Assembly (NCBI RefSeq): GCF_018320785.1 | Contig: NC_054868.1 | Coordinates: 49,428,874-49,492,873, forward strand | Origin: Cheilinus undulatus | Taxonomy: Eukaryota; Chordata; Actinopteri; Labriformes; Labridae | Length of the DNA: 64,000 bases | Direction of reading: 5' to 3' | Shown here: one piece after another, positions 29,532 to 44,900 of the stretch | Position numbering within the stretch: the first letter of the stretch is position 1 | Layout: every line of letters begins with the position of its first letter | Translations under genes and position numbers: made by a program | The notes under the pieces: model-generated | What the model saw: only the letters and a program-made list of their open reading frames with translations | Database searches by the model: none | What the model was told of the DNA's origin: nothing

Positions 29532-32199
29532 TTACTGAGCCACCGAGCTGGTCTTCCCTCGCCTGTGCTTACGGACTTCCTCCATCAGATCTTTCAAGTA
29601 CTGGATCTCTCTGCTGATGGACTCTGCCTTCTCCTTTAGCTCGTGGTTCCTCTTCTCCAGGTCTTCCAGCTCGCTGCCGAGCAGCTCCTGCTCCACCCTC
29701 TTCTTCTGTCTGTAGCGGGTTGCAGCAGTCTTGTTCTGCTCCATCTTCTTCAGCTTCTTCTCAACCACTTTGGGCGCACCAGACACAGATTTGACCTTGG
29801 CGGAGGGAGTGGTGGGCGAAGTGGGTTCAGGTTTTGTGTAGGGTTTGGTCCTGGAGGAACCAGCTGATGGAGAGGGGGTTGGAGGAGGTGAAGGGAAGCG
29901 AGGAGGAGAGCCAGCACTGGACTCGATGCCAGAGTCGCTGTCACTGTCAGTCGATGGAGGGGAGATATTAACGGACTGATCAGAAAGAGACACGAGGGAG
30001 GGCTCTTGTTTGTTGGTGAGCACAACCACGATGTGGCCAGAGGAGGGCAGGGAGAGCACAATAGGGCTGCCGGTCTGAAGGCTTCCACTGGGGTCTGGAA
30101 TGATGGTGGCTGTGAGGGGTGTGTTTTTCTCTGCATCCAGGACATCCACTTCACTCCCCAGCTCCAGCGTGTAGACTGAAGTGGGAGTAGGAGAGGGAAC
30201 AGGGGAGGCAGGCTCAGACTTCATAACAACTTCTTGAGAAGGAACCGACTCTGTCGTCTTGGCCTCAGTCGCCCCAGGGAGGGGGAGCTCAAGAGGAAGA
30301 GCGGGGATGCTGGGCAGTGGCAGGCTCAGCTCCAAGCTGTTACTGGGGACTGGGATGGTTGTGTCATAGGGGTCTAGATCCAGATCCATTTGGGAGTCGA
30401 GGGAGGCTAGGAGATCCTCGGGAGAGCTGGGGGACTCATCAGATGAGCAGGAGCCAATGAGGGAATCCAGGTCAAATTCACTCAGGTCGATTTTCTCTGA
30501 CATCCAGTCCAGGCCCGCGAAAGCATCATCTGCTGACAAAGAGGATTTTTATCATTAATATTTAATCCAACATGACTCTGCAGTGACTAACTTCCTAGAA
30601 TTAACCTCTCTTCAACTTGTTTCTTAAGCATGAGCTTAGATTATGCCATCATCATCAGGCACTTGTAAGGAAGTCTACATTTTTTAATTTCCTGAAGGCT
30701 CAATGCCAAAAAGCATCCTAGTGTTTTTTTCCAGCATCAACTTAAACTGACTTCTGTCCATGTAGAAGACAAGAGTAAGACTTGCTTATACAGATTGTTT
30801 GTGAAAACTGACAATGTACCGAGTTCTTAAGATATACAGATATATTTTCAAACCAGAAATAGGATAAGACTATACTTTCAAATGTTTTAAATTGAAGTTG
30901 ATGATAAAGTATGTCAGACCTAATGCTCAGTTGACATTGTTCACAGTAAGTTTTGTTTAGTCTTAATGAGGGGTTATCAATTTATTTACATTACATAATT
31001 TACATAGCTTTGTTTTTATTTTTTTCTGCAAAAAAATAACTTTGTGTAATTTTTCATATACATTTGGCTGTTTTTAACCAACTGACTTTTTTGACATTAC
31101 CCTGAATAAACTTTTGAGACACTGTCTCACAATTCAGCTAACTACAAAGATGTCAATGTCAGTCAGCCTTACAGAGGATATCACACAAAGGGAATCACAG
31201 CATTGTGAAATGACACCCAGAAAAAAACTAGTTTGAGCCAGTTGTAACCACACACGTAAAGCCACACCTGTGATACCTAATGTTTGCCCTTTATTACCGT
31301 CCACACCTACTAATTTGTTTAGAGTCTTTAAGTTTCAGTCTCTTAGATGAGTATCTTACAAATGATCAATTACTTTCCTCATTTAAAATCTGACTCATTT
31401 AATGTCATAATGTGGAACTACCTTAAAAAAGGGCAAAATGACTTTGCACTTAACAATCAAGATATATGGGAAACCCATGTATAAAAAGCTGACATTTCCA
31501 AACCCCTCATGATACCTTAGTACAACAACAAATTACTTAGACAAACTCACACTCACCTTTGCCATCGTCTGCTCCAATATGGGCATCGAGCAGGTCGCTG
31601 GCGCCCAGCCAGGGGAGGGACAGAGAGTCCGCTCCGGCCTTGGTTCCCAGGAAAGAGGGATGGGAGGGGGTAAGAGGAGGAGAGGGAGGTGGGGAGGCAG
31701 AAGAGAGTGGTGAGAACGATAAGGTCTGGTAGGGAGACAAGGAAGAGGCGTAGGAGGAGAAAGAGAGGGGGGGCGAAGCTGGTGCCTTCCCCTCTAGAGA
31801 GGAGGAGGGAGAAAGAGTTTCTTCTTCATCTTGGTCCAGAAGGGGCCCCATGGGGTCAGCCATCAGAAACGAGGACCCTGTAGACATAGACGCTGGCTTT
31901 GAGTTTATGATCTTACAGACTTGCCAAAGATTTATATTATACCCCTGATTTATGACAAGGCATACAAAAATATCCAATGTCAGCAAAAGTTTTCAATCCT
32001 CAGCAAAACTCGGTAATCTTCGAAATGAGGATAAATACAGTTTACTATTACCACTGTGCTTAGCAAAAACTAAGGCTTTAAGCCCTTATCTGAGTGAACA
32101 GTCACTTAGAAATGCTGAAGTGGTGCTTTGGGAACATGTGTCATTGTCACATCACCAACCTAAGCACAGGGCCTCCACGTCCTCCAAGGCGAGTGTCAT
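29532..32199 (-). CDS. atf4: Activating transcription factor 4 (bZIP)
   Basis: Coding exons are 32160..32199 (13 codons + 1 base), 31557..31877 and 29532..30532. All joins are phase 1, giving 453 aa (human about 351). ATF4 is the nuclear bZIP activator of the integrated stress response, driving amino-acid and redox genes through C/EBP-ATF sites. Visible marks: MADPMGPLLDQDEE near the N terminus; DAFAGLDWMSEKIDLSEFDL (the conserved ATF4 block); DSGIESS (about residues 320-326), matching the beta-TrCP degron; a Pro/Ser-rich middle; and a C-terminal bZIP (about 379-441) with basic region NKTAATRYRQKKR and the leucine-zipper start LEDLEKRNHELKEK. The extra length is Ser/Pro-rich sequence. The start at 32199 is chosen because MTLALEDVEALCL splices in frame; the ATG at 31887 lies upstream of the exon 3 acceptor. 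Which teleost paralogue (a or b) is unresolved. Confidence 0.95.
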
Positions 32200-33357
32200 G
32201 GCTGCTGCTGGTCAGTGGTAGCCGTGAAAGGGTGAGGAGATACAAAGGCGAGTCTGATGATGTTAGCAAGTCGAGCGGTTCGATTGTGCTGTCGACGGCA
32301 GCAAAGCTGAGGGTGATTGCCGAGAGAGACCTGGAATAGAGACACCCGTTTAAGACATGTTAAGGTGAGAAAATGTGCATCATATGCAGACTGATGAGGT
32401 TAAAACATAGGGACAGTGTGGTAAAAATATTCAAGTTTGGCAGTAAAGAACTGGATTTTTCCTGCAACAGAATGCTCCCAGATATGTTATAATCTGCTTT
32501 TATTTGTAATAAAGGGGGACCACAAGACTAATGAGAATCAGCCAGATAGATGCACTATGGCACAACTGCTTTAAATGGGCAGAGCTAAGTTTTAAACCAG
32601 AAACAATCCCCCTGTTTTAGACACATAATGGAAAAAACACACATTTCCTCCCTAATTACCTTCATGTTAACAATACAGCTTTCCTGTTGGTGTATGCTCA
32701 TGTAGTTAAAGCTGTTAACACAGGGGGGAGGGGAGGCTAATTTTGGCTAATCCTTCCACTCAGTGTCAACGCTGCGTTGACGGTAAAACACTCCGCCCTC
32801 CACCGGGGCATAACATTTCCTAATTTGGTCATAGTTTGGCCGGTAACCCCGCCTATCTCAGTGAGTCACGGCCGGGATGTGGGTGGGTGACCGCCATTTT
32901 CACAACAGAGCCATCTGTGCGAGGGCTGAGTGAAAAGGACAGTGCGCGCCATTTTGGAGGCGCCACGTTGTCAGTGTTTTATACACAAAGACACCAAAAA
33001 TGCTTTAGAATAATAAAAATAATTTCAGCAGTTTTATAAAACTACATAACTTATTTTTTGAAGCCCAAGAAGGCTTCGTTATGGACAGGGTAAAACCGTA
33101 TTAACGGCTCGCTACTGTTTGAACACAGGGCAGGACGCTGCCTCACGCGCCGGTTGGTACTACTTTAACTGACAGTTTGTAATTTGACACCGCCGTTCAA
33201 TCACAATAAATTCAGGATACACTTTAAATGTGCTAGTTTCCTTATGTGTGAGAGGGCAACGCCGAATCAGGTTGATAAGACTCAACAAGTCTGGCAACAT
33301 GAATTGACATCAGGCAACCACGGAAGTATTAAGACAAATTTAAAATACTTACGCCAT
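31856..33357 (-). promoter_or_regulatory. atf4 uORF2 (65 codons, overlaps main start)
   Basis: The ATG is at 33355-33357. ATGGC joins the exon starting at 32330 (GTCTCTCTCGG), stays open through that exon, passes the main ATG in another frame, and stops at TGA 31856-31858 in the next exon. It is 65 codons long (mammalian uORF2 is about 59) and overlaps the main ORF by about 60 bases. This is the inhibitory uORF that ribosomes skip when eIF2 is phosphorylated, so translation of atf4 rises under stress. Confidence 0.8.
32160..32330 (-). other. atf4: atf4 exon carrying uORF2 body and main start codon
   Basis: 171-base exon bounded by the acceptor TATTCCAG and a weak donor (GTTGGTGA). It holds no ATG between its acceptor and the main start, so scanning ribosomes meet only uORF1 and uORF2 (both in the 5' exon) before the atf4 ATG. 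Confidence 0.75.
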
Positions 33358-33520
33358 TTTGCCAGAAATTGCCAGTGCACTTTGCCGTTGCACTGCCGGT
33401 TTTTTGCCGCTGCAAGTGAAGCCGCCGCACGCCTTTATGCTGCCATTTTGGCGCTGGAGAGCGTCCACCTGGAGTTTGAAATCCTTTCTTCTGTTGACGG
33501 AACGAAAGACAGGCGGGGAA
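33353..33520 (-). other. atf4: atf4 5' noncoding exon
   Basis: Contains uORF1 and the first five bases of uORF2, and ends at a strong GTAAGT donor at 33347-33352. The upstream limit is inferred from the TATA-like motif at 33531-33538 and is approximate. Confidence 0.6.
33435..33446 (-). promoter_or_regulatory. atf4 uORF1 (3 codons)
   Basis: In the atf4 leader the minus strand reads ATGGCAGCATAA: Met-Ala-Ala-stop, in the context CAAAATGG. Mammalian ATF4 uORF1 is also 3 codons; it lets ribosomes resume scanning and is the positive element of the delayed-reinitiation switch. Its position, upstream of an overlapping uORF2 with about 77 bases between, matches that design. Confidence 0.8.
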
Positions 33521-33527
33521 AGTCACC

Positions 33528-33542
33528 CAAGTATATAAAGGA
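33528..33542 (-). promoter_or_regulatory. TATA-like element of the atf4 promoter
   Basis: The minus strand reads CTTTATATAC about 90 bases upstream of uORF1, in a locally GC-richer region. The spacing would place the start near 33505. The assignment is inference from position only. Confidence 0.35.
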
Positions 33543-33559
33543 CCGAAGCACCGCTACCA

Positions 33560-35022
33560 AAATTCCTCCGCGGTATCACAATTCTTTCTACAGTGTATGG
33601 GTATCACTCCGCGGGGGCGTTTGTTGTCAATGTAAATAGCAGCGCGGGTGAGAGGAGTTCCCGTTTATTAAAATACATTTCCGAGCAAGAACGACAAGAG
33701 TTCCTTGTCGCTGGGCGGTAGTAGTAATTTTGTAAACCCAAACGCGCTAGATGACGTGCTTACTACACCAAATACTTATTTGTGATTGGTGGATGCAAAA
33801 TATGTAGCTAAAAAATAGATCCATATGGAGCTTTGCATACACACACGAGTGCCTCCCCGAGGCAAATGTAGGTCAAAGTCAAAATGTAAACATTGAGGAA
33901 GCATGTACTTTAAAGAACGTAAATAAAAATGATAACTACTGAGAAAAGCTCTGTACAAACACTTTTAATTGAAAAACATATTGCGTAAGATATAGCCTGT
34001 TGGAAAGATACTTTTAACAAAACTTTAATAGACACAAATTAACACCATTGGGCCACTTATTGCTTTTAAATGTCTTTTAAGTAATAGAGGTAAATACAAT
34101 TATTTGTCAAAAGCAGTTTTCCTCTTGTTTCTACCTCTTTAAACATCTTTCATCCTGGAAATCGTTTTAGAATAAATATTGTTCATAAACTAATTCTCCT
34201 TTCGCATCAATTACATCAATTCCACGTTGATGAAAGCTTTGTAAATGAAGAAATAGTCATTTCCCTTTCGTTAGTAGTGTGCCGTTAATTTTGAAGATGG
34301 TTGAACACAAGTTAGCAGCTAACCTTCATAGTAGGAAAGAGAAGTGCACGTACTTCTTACACTTTATACTGCCTCTTGCACTTTAAAAAATGCATTCCCC
34401 CAAATTTATGTTTTCTTACTGTTCTTTTTACACTAAATGTGCCGTCTGTTGAGAAGTTTTTGCAGTTAAACTCAATGAACTTGTCTACAGGTCACTAAGT
34501 CCAGAGTCTGACTGCCCCCTGGTGGTTACATACGAGTGTTTGAAGGCACACCAGTGTCATATTTCTTACATAATTTCAACAGGATATCACATTTCTACAG
34601 ATCATGACTAAAAATATATTCTCATGTAAAGTTCAACATATCTAAATGACTAAATTACTACTTTAAAGAGCCACGGTAGAGGAGGTTTCATGTGGGAGAA
34701 AACTGAGAATGTAGCACATAAACCAAGAATATATGAAGTCTAACAGTAATCTGTTTTAAGCAGTTTTTTAGGTTAGTCTGAGAGAAATATAAAACAAGGA
34801 CTAATCAAAGATGTAAGAAAAATCCTAAAATAAAGGTTAGGTGCAAGAGCACGTGATTGGTAGCAAAAGCCTGCATTGCAACAAAAACACAGAGGCTTCC
34901 TGGATAAAAAGTAAAATGCTTCAAAACTTTTTGATAGTGCATACGTTTGAGCCAACATTGTTTTGTGGCCCACTTTTGCAAGAAACTCACTTAAATCCCA
35001 GGAGAAACTGTACCCATCTGTT
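33560..35022. other. atf4 upstream region, no gene recognised
   Basis: AT-rich; no exon is supported. The short ORFs at 34773-35146 have no domains. Confidence 0.35.
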
Positions 35023-36097: not shown

Positions 36098-36358
36098 TCA
36101 GCTGTAAAATCCATTGTTTTAACACAAGTGTGTATTAGACTTGTGGTACTTCTACAGTCAGCCCTAAGTGGAAACCTGTTTTATGCTTTTTTGTTTGCAT
36201 ATCCACATTAGCTTCATTTTCCAACCACAGAGGCTCCTGCTTGGTCTTTTTCCATTGCTGAGACATGATAACAGGAAACCAGATGTTAGATAATTATCCA
36301 GACCAGAAATCCACTTTTATCCATGAACAGCAGTGTATATGTGTTTGAATAAGCATGG

Positions 36359-39300
36359 TTAATTCTCCTCCACAGTTCTTCCAAAATATTCCTTCTGAAA
36401 TTGCTGGAACTCCTCCTCAGTGAACAGAGACTCTGGCTCTTTGGCTTTCTTGACTTGTGGCTCGCGGCGATTTCTGGACTGTCTCCCTGTATTGTGATTG
36501 AGGATCTACAAGAGCAGAAAAAGTGAGTTAACAACATGTACAAAAAAACTTAATGCACATAAAATAGAAGAATTGGGAATTACAAAACAAGAGAGGAGTG
36601 ATTTCAAACAATCAGCATAAAAAACAAACTGTTTTTGTTGTGCGTTTTAACAAGCATTAATGTCCTGATTTCTTTCAAGACCAGTCTGATCCTTCTTTAC
36701 AAGTTGTACTCAAAACTCTACCATGAAAGTTACACTGGTATGTAGGATATGTCTGTTTTGGGGGTCTCGCAGAGATTAAGAAAAAACGGCTTCAACTGTT
36801 ATCTTGCACTATGACGTCCACCAAAGTCCACAACATTCCACAGCTTTGGTGCAGCTTTGTTGTTCTTTTAGCACCATCTGATTTCACCATTTGGAATTTG
36901 TGCTTCAGCTAGCTTTTGTATGGCAGTTCAGCTCTCAGCCTGCAGTGACTTGTAAAGTACAGACCTACAGCCTAAAAGCTATGCTTCCCATCTCCATTTG
37001 TCACCTGCCATCTTTACCTGAGGAGTCTGTGAACAAACTGATGCTACTCAAGGTTTACTTTCTTAAAAATGTACCGATGTTTTCATTAAATCCTGGGGGA
37101 AAAGCTGTTGCAAAGTAGCACCAATCCCACAAGCGTAGTCTGCATTGCTATGTATCAACAAATTATGAGAAGGAAAGCAGCTGCTTGCAATACCTAAATA
37201 ACTAGAGCTGATTTTCACTAGCATTAGGCAGTGTTAATCTTATTGACCAAAACTATGACTAAAAGTGTTAGTCAGCTACCTTCTTTCCATGAGAAACACT
37301 AGACTAACACTAGGGCTGGACAATCAATCAAAAAATTAAATCCCAATATGGCCTGCTCCAATTTTCAAATTGCAGAAGGTGCAATATTTCTTTAAACTGA
37401 AATTAGTTTTAAGATAGCAATTAAATTTTTTGTTTTTTGCAGCAGAGATATTATGCATTACAGCTCATGCAATCATCCACAGGTAATGCTTAAGACAGTC
37501 TACAAAAATCCTACTTTTTTGTGCATTTTTCTTATTAAATATGAGACTGACATAAATTGATCACTCCCGTCAATACATACATAAATTCCTATCCAATTTT
37601 CAATATGAGTCAAAATCATCACAATTACATATTTTTCAAAATTGTTCAGCTCTAGTTATATCTAATATTGTGTTGGTTAGAATATAGAATGATTTATTGG
37701 AGAACTTAAGAAATATCAAATCGCAATTGCAATACTGGGGGGGGGATTAGATTATTCTCCCAAAACATTCAGCCCTAAGTAACACTAGCTAAAAACAGCT
37801 CTTTGATGACAAAAACTCTAACGAAAAGTAAGTTTAGTTTTCCTCAAGGAGACCAAGATGAGAAAAAAAATGTAATTTGTTATTCGGTGGACTTCCAAAA
37901 TCCATGATATTTTTCCCCTGTGGGTAAATCTGTAAAAACGTGAGGTTATCTGTAGCCCTTCTGCCTCTGACCTGTAGAAAGGAGTGATCCCTGGTTCCTC
38001 AGGGTGCACAGAACAGAAATATGACTTGGCACCAGATTAAGGCAGAGAGAAAAATTTTTGAAAGATTTGACTAAAATGTAGGATTTTTGTATGAATGAAA
38101 ATTGCACTTAAAGTTTGTTTTAATTTTAGTTAGAAATTACAAAAATGTGACTAAAATTAAAAGGTATTTCAATAATAAGACTAAGACTAAAGTTAAAAAT
38201 AACCATCAAAATTAACACTGGCATCAGGTTGTGTGCATGGTGTATGTGGCTTTCGCACTTGTGGACTTGATGACACACAATTCAGCATCTTAAAGGTCAC
38301 ATATTATGTAAAATACACTTTTTCAGGCTTTTCGAGAAAAAATATGCACCCCTGCCCCCCGCCCCCCAAGAATCAGAAAAATCCAACCCCCTCTCTTTCT
38401 CCACCTTTTGAAAAAATGTGAGCTGGAACAAGGCATTCTAAGATTTTCCTCTCATGATGTCATGTGGGGAGTTAGCCTAGCCCCCAGGTTTGGTTTGCCC
38501 TCCTCTAGCTCTCCTCTCCTGAACCTCCTCCCAGCTGGCAGCCGAGAGGAGGATCAGAAGAACCACATCCATCAAGTCACATCCAATTCCTGAGAGGGGC
38601 GTAATCAGGAGTGGAGTCAGACAGCTCATTAATATTTAAAGCCACAGACACAGAAACAGCTCTTTCTGAGCAGGGCTGAAACAGAGGGATTTTTTTCACA
38701 TGCAAAAATCCAATACTGGAGTGTTTTTTCAGCAACAAATGTCACAGACATGTTTTGGGGACCTCTGAGACAAATATAAACTTGTCTTAAAGGAGTAAAA
38801 TATGTGACCTTTAAATTGTTTTGTGGTCACACAGGTAAATAGGATGCAGTCAACCCTTTGGCTGATGACATTGGTATTAGAGGTGCACCTTGTAAACCGG
38901 ATTTTATGTTATTGGTAATAAAAGAGGCTACTTTAAAAGAGATCTACTAGACTCATAGTAACAGAAATTAAACTATCTCTACTGATGGGAGTTGTCACGG
39001 GTTAGCATTCTCTACATTTCTCACCTTCAGGGTGTCAGAGTCTGTTGCTTTGTAGCCAGTCGTCATAAAATATTTGAGGTTAGCACTCATCTGGCTCGTC
39101 CTCTGCTTCTTCCTGAACTCCTCTGCAATTCAGAACAAGAGTTAGTAAGAGCAAGAAGGTACTATTTAATAATACAGGTTGCCTCAGTGAGCCCTAAATA
39201 TTTCAGTAACATCACATTCTACAATCTACACAATTCCAGAGTCATTATGTTTACACTGGTATATCATAGCAGTAATTGTGGACTTTGGCTGACATGGCAG

Positions 39301-41237
39301 CAGAATTTCAAACGTATCCAGTGACTAATCTGGTAAATATATCAATACCTGCCTCATAACAAGAAAAAAGTCCACACCACCCAATATGGGGTTAGTTCTG
39401 GTTTGTAATTACCAAAAAAATAAAGGCAAACTCCTACACATCATCTAAACTGTAGAAAATACATGAGCATTATTTTGTATATGCACAGATTACACAGTGC
39501 GTTATCTCTACCAGTTTAAAATATGACAAAAGAGCTCATGTTTTTTCAACTCTTGTACGTTTCAATATAAATAATGATATTGTCTTAAACATGTATCATC
39601 AAAAGTACTGACAACCTTATTTCAGACAGTATTGTAAATAACTGTCTACACAGATGTATGGTCCTTCTTTTAAGGATTAAATACACAACTTAAAATTGAA
39701 CTTCAGATTGATTAAATAAGGCCTTTTTATTTCTGTTTTTAATGAAGGACGTATTTGCATACAAATGTTGAGTTGTGACTGACCCACGGCGGACTTGATC
39801 CTCTTGTCTTTGACTGTAGCTTTGCTCTTCCCAGGTCCGAGTCGACCCTGCAGCCGTTTGACCTGCTTGGTGACTCCCTGCCGCTTGGTGCTCACCAGCT
39901 CCATAACTGTGGCCGAGCTGGGAGTCTGCTGTTGCTTCTTTTTCTTTGCTTTGCTGACATCTGACAACACAGGACAAAAAAGGACAGAAGGCAAGCTTAA
40001 ATTTGCGCAGGGAAATTCTTTTTTATTTTGGTCATATATTGGCTAAGGCTCTAAAATGTGTAATTTTGCACTATTTAATACTGAAATAAAAAATGTGGAC
40101 AAAAATCTTTTAAGTCTAGTTTGAAAGGGATAGTTAACGGGAAGCTGAGGCTACAAGTCACACAGGCTCACCAAAATTGTACAATAAAAAAAACTGGAAA
40201 ATGTTGCATGGTCTGATGAGTCTCAATTTCAGCTGCAACATTCAGATGGTAGGGTCAGATTTTGGCATAAACAACATGACAGCATGGATCCATCCTGCCT
40301 TGTACCAATAGCTCAGGCTGGTATTGGTGGTTTTATGGTGTGGGGGATATTTCCTTGGCATGCTTGGGCCCCTTAGTACCAATTGAGCATAATTTAAATG
40401 CCACAGAGCTACCTGAGTAGTGTTGCTGACCCTGTCTCCTTTTATGACCACAGTGTACCCATCTTCTGATGGCTACTTCCAGCAGGGTAATGCACCAAAT
40501 GATCTCAATCTGGTTTCTTGCACATGGCAATGAGTTCAATGTGATCCAATGGCCTCCACAGTCACCAGATCTCAGTTTAAGAGTGTCTTTGGCATGTGGT
40601 GAAACAGGAGGTTCACATTATGTATCTGCAGCCAACGAATCTGCAGCAAATGTGTGATACTATCAATATGGACCAAAATCTCTGAGGAATATTTACAGCA
40701 CCTTGTTGAAACTATGCCACAAAGAATTAAGGCATCTCTGAAGGCTAAATATAATAGGCAATATAAAAGATGTAATAGACTAAATTTAATGATTAATTTT
40801 TGAGGCAAAAATGAAAAACTTTTGAATCTAATTTAATTGAACTGTACTGGACAAACTAAAATTGAAAGATTTCAAGTTTTTGATTGAAATTTTAATAAAT
40901 CTCCATTTTATCGTAGTGTTGGTAGTTCAAGCCTTGTCAACGAATGTCTTGATTTACATGAAAACAGATGAATAATTATTTTATTATTTAGTTAGGCTAA
41001 AAATTGTGATTAAATATATCTTAAAGTAATCTACTAATTCGGTAAAATGCACCAAAAATTAAAATAACAGTAAAATAATTCCCATTCTCCAACAACATGG
41101 TAGTGGGTTAGATGAGGACCCTGTTAGCCAATGCTGATGTAGCTAACCCCTGTTAGCCAGTGAGTTATCGGGCCACACTAACCTTTAATGTCATCACTGA
41201 GCAGCTCCAGTCCTCTTCTAATCAACGACGCCGACAT
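36359..41237 (-). CDS. rps19bp1: Ribosomal protein S19-binding protein 1 / active regulator of SIRT1
   Basis: Four coding exons: 41183..41237, 39784..39960, 39025..39122, 36359..36505, with GT-AG sites and matching phases (1, 1, 0), giving 140 aa (human 136). The start MSASLIRRGLELL matches the family N terminus. The centre is very basic and lysine-rich (KAKKKKQQQT; KSKATVKDKRIKSAV), as expected of a nucleolar protein. The C terminus ends SLFTEEEFQQFQKEYFGR, the conserved tail. In mammals the protein binds RPS19 in the nucleolus and is reported to stimulate SIRT1 deacetylation of p53. It lies next to atf4 as in human 22q13. Intron 1 carries a Tc1-like fossil, and the last intron carries two MITEs. 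Confidence 0.95.
37311..37777. mobile_element. hAT-like MITE inside rps19bp1 intron 3
   Basis: TAGGGCTGGACAATCAATC at the left mirrors a right end finishing in TTCAGCCCTA. The flanks ACTAACAC and AGTAACAC match at 7 of 8 positions, consistent with an aged hAT target duplication. A (G)9 run lies near the right end. Confidence 0.7.
38290..38814. mobile_element. TTAA-flanked MITE, copy 2 (inverted relative to copy 1)
   Basis: Begins TTAAAGGTCACATATTATG and ends ATATGTGACCTTTAA. Interior segments match the reverse complement of 14226-14769 (CAGCTCATTAA, GAAACAGCTC, TTTTGGGGACCTCTGAGAC). Lies in rps19bp1 intron 3. Confidence 0.85.
40130..40800 (+). pseudogene. Tc1-like transposase pseudogene in rps19bp1 intron 1
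   Basis: The plus strand, across several frameshifts and stops, reads like a fish Tc1-type DDE transposase: WKMLHGLMSLNFSCN, NIQMVGSDFGINNMTAWIHP, PFMTTVYPSSDGYFQQGNAP (DDE second-block region), then ISEEYLQHLVETMPQRIKA at the C terminus. It runs antisense to its host gene. Related fragments are at 26060-26480 and 59249-59740. Confidence 0.8.
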
Positions 41238-41954: not shown

Positions 41955-44900
41955 ATGGCGCTTCAAGCTAGAGCTGTCCTCACCTCTAAATGGCTCTCAG
42001 AGGCCATGAAGGCTCAGGGGAAAATGCGCATCTTGGACACCTCTTGGTATTTGCCAAAGCTGCGACGAAACGCCAAAAGCGAGTTCAAAAAGAAACATAT
42101 TCCTGGCGCGGCTTTCTTCAACATTGACCAGTGCTGTGATAAAACCTCTCCCCTGGACCACATGCTGCCATCAGAGGAGTTTTTTGCAGATTACGTTGGG
42201 AATTTAGGAATCGAAAATGACACGCACGTCGTGGTGTATGACGCCAGTGAGTTTGGTGCGTTCTCCGCGCCTCGTGTCTGGTGGATGTTCCGAGTGTTCG
42301 GGCACAGGTCCGTGTCTATGCTTAACGGGGGACTGAGAAACTGGGAGCTAGAGGGTCGACCTGTGAGTGACCAGTATGTGAAACCAGCACCAGCCGAGTT
42401 TAAAGCTTCCCTGAACCGCCCCTGGATCAAGACCTATGATGATATGCTGGATAACCTGGACACCAAGGAGTTCCAGGTGGTGGACGCCAGGCCTGCAGGC
42501 AGGTTCAAAGGACTGGACCCTGAACCCAGAGACAGTGAGTAGTCTGCAGCTGTAGCAAATGCAGTTCTCTCTTTCAAGTCAAGCTAACACACTGTAGCTA
42601 CAGTGGGAAGAGCGCAAAGCAGTCTATCAGTTTTAGAAGTTTAAGACGAAAGTATGTGTGCATAATAGGAAGTTGATGATCGACTTCACACATTTTTTTT
42701 TAATCATTCTACATTTGACTGGGCCAAAACAGGCCAAGCTTTACGTAGATGGACATGGAACTGTGATTATTCAACTGGATGAAAAATGTATCAACAGCTT
42801 ATGGTAATAGCTGCTACGAAAAGGGATGCAATATAATCAGCACAATTTAGAATCAATGGATAACAGTTTGAAAGTCAAGTGTTAGTGGATATAAACATTT
42901 CCCTGCACAACTGTAAAATCCAAATGAATGCACTTAAACTTAATGCTTAAATTTGTGTGCATATATATAATATAGGAAAGGTCGCTTTTTAGATTAGTAA
43001 GTATATTTCAGTGCAGAAATTCATCATATTATATCTTTAACTCTTCAAGCCCTAATCCATTTTTCTAACAATTTGGCCTCGCCTTGAATTATTGTCTTAA
43101 AACGCTTATAAACCATCAACCATGTAGTGCACAATCAAGCTCTAAACATCCTTTTGTTCAGGACAACCTGAGATTATGTATGCTGCAGTTTTGTCACTTG
43201 GATTTAGAAAGGTTATGGGACTATAAAGATGAAAGAAAAAACTCAACGGAAATGAAAACTCGTTATATTTCATATTACATATTGATAAAACATTTAAACG
43301 TACTCATTATTACAATAAAACAGATTTAAATAAATTGTATGGCTGCATGTTCTTCATAGACTTTTGCCGCTGTTTCTTTCGGGACCCACAGAAAACTGCT
43401 CTTCGACCCACTTTTGGGTCCCAAACCACAAGTTGAGAAACACTATATTAAAGCACATATTTTTGTTAGTACAGAAAAAAGAATTTTTGATTTTTTTATT
43501 CTAATTGAGCATCATGGTTACTGGACAACAAACACTACACATAAAACTGGGAGGTTATAAAAAGTGGAGAAACCATACAGCTGTCAGTGTCAATGCCTTT
43601 GTTTAAGAAAAATTAATAGAATTACTGTAAAGTCAAATATAAACGTGCCTGCTTGCGTGAAGGGCGGCATGATAATTTTAGTATGATTAAGGTATTAGCA
43701 TATATGAACAATTCTGCCAATATTTTAAACTAAAATTTTGGCTGTAAAAGTCTGCCCTTATTAGCTGTAAATGATGGCAGTTTGAACAAATAAGATAGTG
43801 GACTTTAAGGCTGGACTTACAGACCTACTTCAGCTGATGTATTATCTTTATTCTTCATCATACCTTATCCTGACAATGTCAGACTTTAAATTGTGTGTTT
43901 TATGGGCTAAATCTTTAGGTTGGTATCAGCTCAAACTAATTTGTAAATATCGGCATATCAGATATCAGCAGAAATATCCAATATTGTACATCCATGCTTG
44001 CATGACTCTGGTGTTCAGCGTGGTAGAGGCATGCACTGAAAAAACTGTAACCGTAATGATCCATTGCTCCACTTCAGTGTGTGTCAGCGTTTTTCAGAGT
44101 TTACCCTGAACAAACACACAGATGGGCTTGGCCTAAATCACTGAACAACACAAACACGAACGCGGAGCGGGCATACATGACATGCTTGCATAACTGAGCA
44201 TTTAACCAACAATCACTGACCCATATGCTCACACACACGTCTGCAGAGGAATCAACGGTCTAGACTGTAGATACTGTCAGACCATATAGATAAGTGGATC
44301 TTTACAGAAGGCATTGTTAGATGATAGCACTCACACAGCATACGTGACTTATCTCATGTTATTTACACTTTAGCCACACCCAACTACACACACATTGTCC
44401 TGCAGACACACTGGACATGAGAACTAATACACAAAGCCGTAAATGATGAACAATTAAAGAATCCATCCACACTTCTGTTTGCCAAAGCAGTCTTAGCAGT
44501 GAGTTTTATCAGCAAATTACAGTTCTACTAGAAATATATACTTTTTATGTATAACCCGATTCCAAGAAGTTGGAATGCTCTGTAAATGTATTTAAAAACA
44601 GCATGCCGTGATTGTCAAATCTCATAAACCCATATTTTATTCACAATAGAACATGAACAACATAGCAGATGTCCAAACTGAGACATTTTACTACTTCATG
44701 ACACATATTAGCTTGTTTTGAATTTGATGGCTGCTACACATCTCAAAAAAGTAGGGATGGGAAACAAAGGGCTGGGAAAGTAAGTGGTACTAATAAAAAA
44801 ACGGCTGGAGGACAGTTTTGCAACCATCTCAGTTAATTGGCAACAGGTCAGTGACATGAGAGGCAGAGTCTCTCAGAAGTAAAGATGTGTTGAGGTTTAT

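Follow-up and report, generated by a model that had tools for sequence, protein, structure and literature searches.

The leader of atf4 in the fish Cheilinus undulatus very probably carries the standard two-uORF delayed-reinitiation switch

The ATF4 genes of human and mouse reportedly have a delayed-reinitiation leader, a description said to go back to Vattem and Wek in 2004, and the upstream open reading frames (uORFs) of the human leader start in strong sequence contexts. The question raised by the locus studied here is whether the same arrangement stands before atf4 in Cheilinus undulatus, for which we analyzed a 64,000-nucleotide (nt) stretch of contig NC_054868.1 (forward-strand positions 49,428,874 to 49,492,873; hereafter the window, within which all coordinates are given). 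We conclude that the 5' leader of this fish atf4 gene very probably carries the standard ATF4 delayed-reinitiation switch, an interpretation that appears well supported and is not new as a mechanism. For Cheilinus undulatus the switch itself is something that we infer, and it has been demonstrated in zebrafish and mammals.

The gene lies on the minus strand, and the transcription start and splice use of the model (Table 1) were inferred from sequence. Once spliced in this way, the main coding sequence (CDS) is one frame that stays open throughout, with 453 or 452 amino acids (aa) depending on which half of a tandem acceptor is used. This tandem CAGCAG (30535-30530, minus strand) stands ahead of exon 4 and gives either KADDAF (453 aa) or KDDAF (452 aa). 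The product of exon 4 contains a bZIP domain (Pfam PF00170, bZIP_1), and its comparison by phmmer returned three PDB matches, headed by the ATF-4 chain 1ci6_A (E=1.1e-20). Judged by the match of its bZIP to this solved ATF-4 chain, the gene is atf4. The exon 4 protein gave 42 stretches and no confirmed relatives among prokaryote genome contigs, as expected for a fish gene, and 10 pattern stretches and no confirmed relatives among viral contigs.

Exactly two ATGs precede the CDS in the modelled spliced leader, taken from 33505, with no third; beyond them, the DNA upstream has its nearest ATG at 33678. The first opens uORF1, ~62 nt from the predicted transcription start near 33508. A preliminary description of this locus had proposed uORF1 as a three-codon Met-Ala-Ala-stop frame, and we re-derived it base for base from the raw sequence (33446-33435). 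The second ATG, at 33357, opens uORF2, whose 65 sense codons (peptide MASLSAITLSFAAVDSTIEPLDLLTSSDSPLYLLTLSRLPLTSSSHDTRLGGRGGPVLRVLVSDG) cross both splice junctions and run in the -1 frame relative to atf4, ending after an overlap with the first 62 nt of its CDS. The earlier claims of a 65-codon uORF2 that overlaps the atf4 start out of frame, and of a leader lacking any other ATG in between, were likewise borne out by this re-derivation. The uORF1 stop is separated from uORF2 by 77 nt and from atf4 by 213 nt, and uORF2 begins 136 nt before atf4. The two uORF start codons are each in a context with -3 A and +4 G, and the atf4 start is weaker, with G at -3 and A at +4.

Under delayed reinitiation, uORF1, with its three residues and strong start context, would be translated, after which many 40S subunits would resume scanning. 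With eIF2 ternary complex plentiful, these subunits would reinitiate 77 nt further on at uORF2, also in a strong context, and would cross the atf4 start while reading out of frame. Phosphorylation of eIF2 would slow recharging, so that more subunits would bypass uORF2 and start at atf4, 213 nt past the uORF1 stop.

Evidence that a fish leader of this kind operates as a switch comes from zebrafish, in which EGFP placed behind the uORF regions of atf4a and atf4b rose in expression in tars mutants (PMC8547220). The induction of these reporters is described as gcn2-dependent and perk-independent; in vivo, mutation of the uORF1 ATG led to loss of expression, and mutation of the uORF2 ATG left expression high whatever the stress (PMC8547220). 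By that description the zebrafish leaders resemble the present one in having two uORFs, with a positive-acting uORF1 and an inhibitory uORF2 (PMC8547220). Because the same uORF pair works via Gcn2-dependent reinitiation in zebrafish, stress induction would be the natural prediction for Cheilinus undulatus. Paired ATF4 uORFs are described across metazoa except nematodes, with a short permissive uORF1 and a long uORF2 as in the leader studied here (PMC4176352). The insect uORF2 described in that source carries a second in-frame ATG, whereas uORF2 of this fish has none.

Like human and mouse ATF4, the fish gene has a uORF1 of three sense codons, a uORF2 that overlaps the CDS in the -1 frame and a medium context at the ATF4 start. 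Finer comparison was made against a provisional human leader sequence, with a uORF1 reading MAY*, a uORF2 of 59 residues, 87 nt between the uORFs, 97 nt from uORF2 to ATF4 and an overlap of 83 nt. Relative to these provisional spacings the fish leader has a shorter overlap (62 vs 83 nt) and a longer distance from uORF2 to the CDS (136 vs 97 nt), and its uORF2 has 65 codons, against 59 in human. The first 48 nt of uORF2 match the human uORF2 start of this sequence at 34 of 48 ungapped positions (best other placement, 24), and the alignment score of the uORF2 peptide against its human counterpart was reached by 8 of 2000 shuffled peptides; since the human sequence is provisional, this similarity at the uORF2 N-terminus is a lead, not proof of conservation. 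Human uORF1 and uORF2 are given as 3 and 59 codons in PMC6321046, and as 4 and 60 codons with the stop, in the -1 frame, in PMC11058473.

Two further features set the fish leader apart from the human one. The Ala codons of uORF1 are both GCA, unlike the GCG of human. DENR dependence is tied in PMC7494916 to the codon GCG within the human uORF lying ahead of the overlapping one (equivalent to uORF1 here), with GCC less dependent, and GCA is a codon that the main text of that paper does not name. The second feature is a start-stop uORF before uORF1, which the main text of PMC11058473 calls highly conserved among vertebrates and its methods assign to most mammals, and which that source reports to be absent in mouse and possum. 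No start-stop uORF was found in 34100-33353; because mouse, the original model, is without one, we do not count it as a defining feature of the switch.

The alternative that survives best, although we consider it unlikely, is that repression works mainly by a stem-loop in the overlap at which ribosomes queue, a role proposed for SL3 in human, together with decay from uORF2 termination. SL3 is reported to be highly conserved among vertebrates (PMC11058473). In this fish 299 nt separate the uORF2 stop from the exon 3/4 junction downstream, which makes decay of uORF2-translated transcripts a plausible expectation, and the 62-nt overlap folds at -23 kcal/mol, a value that 11 of 200 shuffles matched (28 of 200 for a 97-nt version). 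Three other pieces of the leader were no more stable than their shuffles, 112, 151 and 157 of 200 being as good. A control of 1000 recodings that leave the ATF4 protein unchanged and the uORF2 frame open tells against this alternative, as 13.5% of them (62 nt) and 22.6% (97 nt) gave folds no weaker than the natural one. The SL3-like stem-loop, suggestive against shuffles, fails this coding-preserving control, and for that reason we do not claim it.

The preliminary description had called the switch fully preserved and equal to the mammalian layout. The identity of the gene, the layout, the frame, the uORF lengths and the start contexts do match the vertebrate switch, but the lack of a start-stop uORF, GCA in place of GCG, the changed spacing and overlap, and a stem-loop that does not rise above its coding-preserving control do not fit that wording. 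The core switch is intact, and "fully preserved" is too strong.

Several observations weigh against delayed reinitiation as the explanation of this leader. The longer distance from uORF2 to atf4 and the division of uORF2 between exons could shift its tuning, and the first two donors are just moderate, falling by an approximate donor matrix in the top 5.8% (donor 1) and top 8.3% (donor 2) of GTs in the window, with neither the best in its region. In PMC11058473, uORF2 is described as substantially translated even under stress, with further layers acting, so that delayed reinitiation alone probably does not explain everything. The layout alone is also uncommon without being extreme: when the 284-nt leader was dinucleotide-shuffled 50,000 times, 0.95% of the products had two ATGs and no more, the first uORF being no longer than six codons with its stop and the second overlapping out of frame, and the share rose to 2.4% once additional ATGs were permitted. 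An out-of-frame overlapping uORF of any kind arose in 58% of shuffles, and because shuffles average 2.4 ATGs, those of the leader are not depleted. Synonymous recoding gave an overlap of this length or longer in 54% of 20,000 cases. With a geometry that is uncommon and not extreme, the case for the switch rests on its location at atf4 and on the agreement of frame, lengths and contexts.

All introns of the model are GT...AG, the third (exon 3/4) having the donor GTGAGT and either TGTCAG or CAGCAG as acceptor. Exon 1 ends inside codon 2 of uORF2 (33357-33347 region, minus strand); retention of intron 1 would turn uORF2 into Met-Ala-stop (MA*), and retention of intron 2 would run the CDS straight into TTA GGT TGG TGA. 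It is on this exon structure that a second alternative bears, namely that the dominant transcripts start inside intron 1 or retain it, so that uORF2 is not formed. The ratio of observed to expected CpG is 0.83-1.14 in four windows covering 33001-33900 and 0.86 over 32801-33100, compared with 0.33 for the whole window; this CpG-rich DNA, reaching to ~32800, is consistent with a promoter-like stretch that extends into intron 1, where two AAAATGGC motifs also lie. The truncated MA* reading of the intron-1-retained form points the same way, as does an alternatively spliced human ATF4 mRNA reported to be translated from an internal ribosome entry site (PMC6321046). These points are opposed by a TATA-like element upstream of exon 1 and by the 17 ATGs of intron 1, of which 16, or more, would stand ahead of atf4 as extra starts upon retention; because of these ATGs, leaders containing intron 1 would be poorly translated, and we hold dominance of such transcripts to be very improbable. 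Within 34100-33353 there is no C/EBP-ATF response element (CARE), unfolded protein response element (UPRE) or full cAMP response element (CRE) by approximate consensus motifs; two TGACG half-sites occur there on the opposite strand.

Table 1. Features of the modelled atf4 gene, its leader and the associated motif copies (window coordinates).
Feature	Positions	Strand	Remarks
Candidate TATA box TATATA	33532..33537	-	pattern scan; predicted start ~30 nt downstream, near 33508
Exon 1, leader with uORF1 and first 5 nt of uORF2	33353..33508	-	5' end predicted
uORF1, ATG GCA GCA TAA (Met-Ala-Ala-stop)	33435..33446	-	context GCCAAAATGG
uORF2, first 5 nt, ATGGC	33353..33357	-	context GGCAAAATGG; exon end
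Intron 1	32331..33352	-	GTAAGT...TTCCAG
Exon 2, middle of uORF2 and atf4 start codon	32160..32330	-	spliced model
atf4 start codon	32197..32199	-	context AGCC ATG A
Intron 2, within uORF2/atf4 overlap	31878..32159	-	GTTGGT...CTACAG
Exon 3, end of uORF2 and atf4 coding	31557..31877	-	spliced model
uORF2 stop TGA	31856..31858	-	299 nt upstream of exon 3/4 junction
Exon 4 to stop codon, rest of atf4 with bZIP	29532..30532	-	start 30532 or 30529 by tandem acceptor
AAAATGGC copy 1, includes uORF1 start codon	33442..33449	-	word search
AAAATGGC copy 2, includes uORF2 start codon, ends at exon 1 donor	33353..33360	-	word search
AAAATGGC copy 3, intron 1	32948..32955	-	word search
AAAATGGC copy 4, intron 1	32893..32900	-	word search

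That the layout is a chance product of the leader sequence, in a gene controlled otherwise, is hardly credible: the ~1 to 2.4% of shuffled leaders that yield it and the unremarkable length of the overlap keep the layout alone from being overwhelming, but an atf4 gene begins with it, its frame is that of tested orthologs and its lengths are similar to theirs, and the region around the uORF2 start is like that of the provisional human sequence.

Alongside the delayed-reinitiation switch, the start codons themselves suggest a more tentative proposal. It is possible, if doubtful, that both atf4 uORF start codons are also YY1 (TISU-like, for translation initiator of short 5' untranslated regions) sites within a cluster of four same-strand AAAATGGC motifs across exon 1 and intron 1, in which case promoter activity and the translational switch would both be set by shared bases, with copy 2 further overlapping the exon 1 donor that creates uORF2. 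Four of the six copies of AAAATGGC in the window fall on the atf4 strand within 557 bp (33449-32893). Over both strands of the whole window the motif is not enriched (6 found, 4.5 expected; 30 of 100 shuffles had as many). When six sites were placed at random, the fraction of 400,000 draws that clustered in this way was 7.5e-6, and among the 8733 8-mers present 4 to 6 times only AAAATGGC and its reverse complement do so. Shuffling 33508-32331 20,000 times never gave four copies, and two copies arose in 13 of 20,000 shuffles of intron 1; as AAAATGGC was chosen after the fact from both uORF starts, the intron 1 test is the fairer. The window shows no enrichment of a looser YY1-type pattern that tolerates two mismatches at most (17 found, 17.4 expected). 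In the provisional human sequence the uORF starts have CCATGGC, and not AAAATGGC.

The TISU/YY1 element has an invariable ATG inside a YY1-type core, held in one orientation and placed downstream of the transcription start. AAAATGGC, present at both uORF starts in one orientation, resembles the AAGAUGG core, a likeness that is partial. A TISU AUG that is not the main start is described as out of frame or followed by a stop, as the two uORF starts are here (PMC2518114). The fish motif differs in having A for G at -1, a 3' flank that matches in part and, for uORF1, a predicted cap distance of ~62 nt, against a median of 12 nt in genes starting at TISU (PMC2518114); the flanks show 1 to 2 mismatches. 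TISU positions extend up to +30 from the transcription start. Among the matches listed, no title or abstract opening ties YY1 or TISU to ATF4 uORF starts.

An AROS/RPS19BP1 exon (39677-40042, minus strand; Pfam PF15684, E=2.4e-13) lies ~6 kb upstream of atf4 on the same strand and speaks for the atf4 reading; RPS19BP1 is a neighbor of ATF4 in human. An open frame at 41955-42542 on the plus strand has a rhodanese domain (PF00581, E=2.3e-14) and resembles an exon of thiosulfate or mercaptopyruvate sulfurtransferase. Two minus-strand frames gave weak matches below their cut-offs: 1662-2342 to a HIT domain (PF01230; 20.5 bits, just under the 21.5 cut-off) and 36286-36549 to an F-box-like domain (PF12937; E=0.0058, 16.8 bits, cut-off 24.3), and the other nine open frames scanned alongside the latter had no domain match. 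A scan of the whole window against Rfam gave no matches.

Were the AAAATGGC cluster bound by YY1, it would couple how a master stress regulator is transcribed to how it is translated, via the same bases. The paired-uORF leader adds no new mechanism and stands as a further case of the known ATF4 paired-uORF switch. It supports annotating this gene as a stress-switched atf4, an annotation of use in gene models and in integrated stress response reporters.

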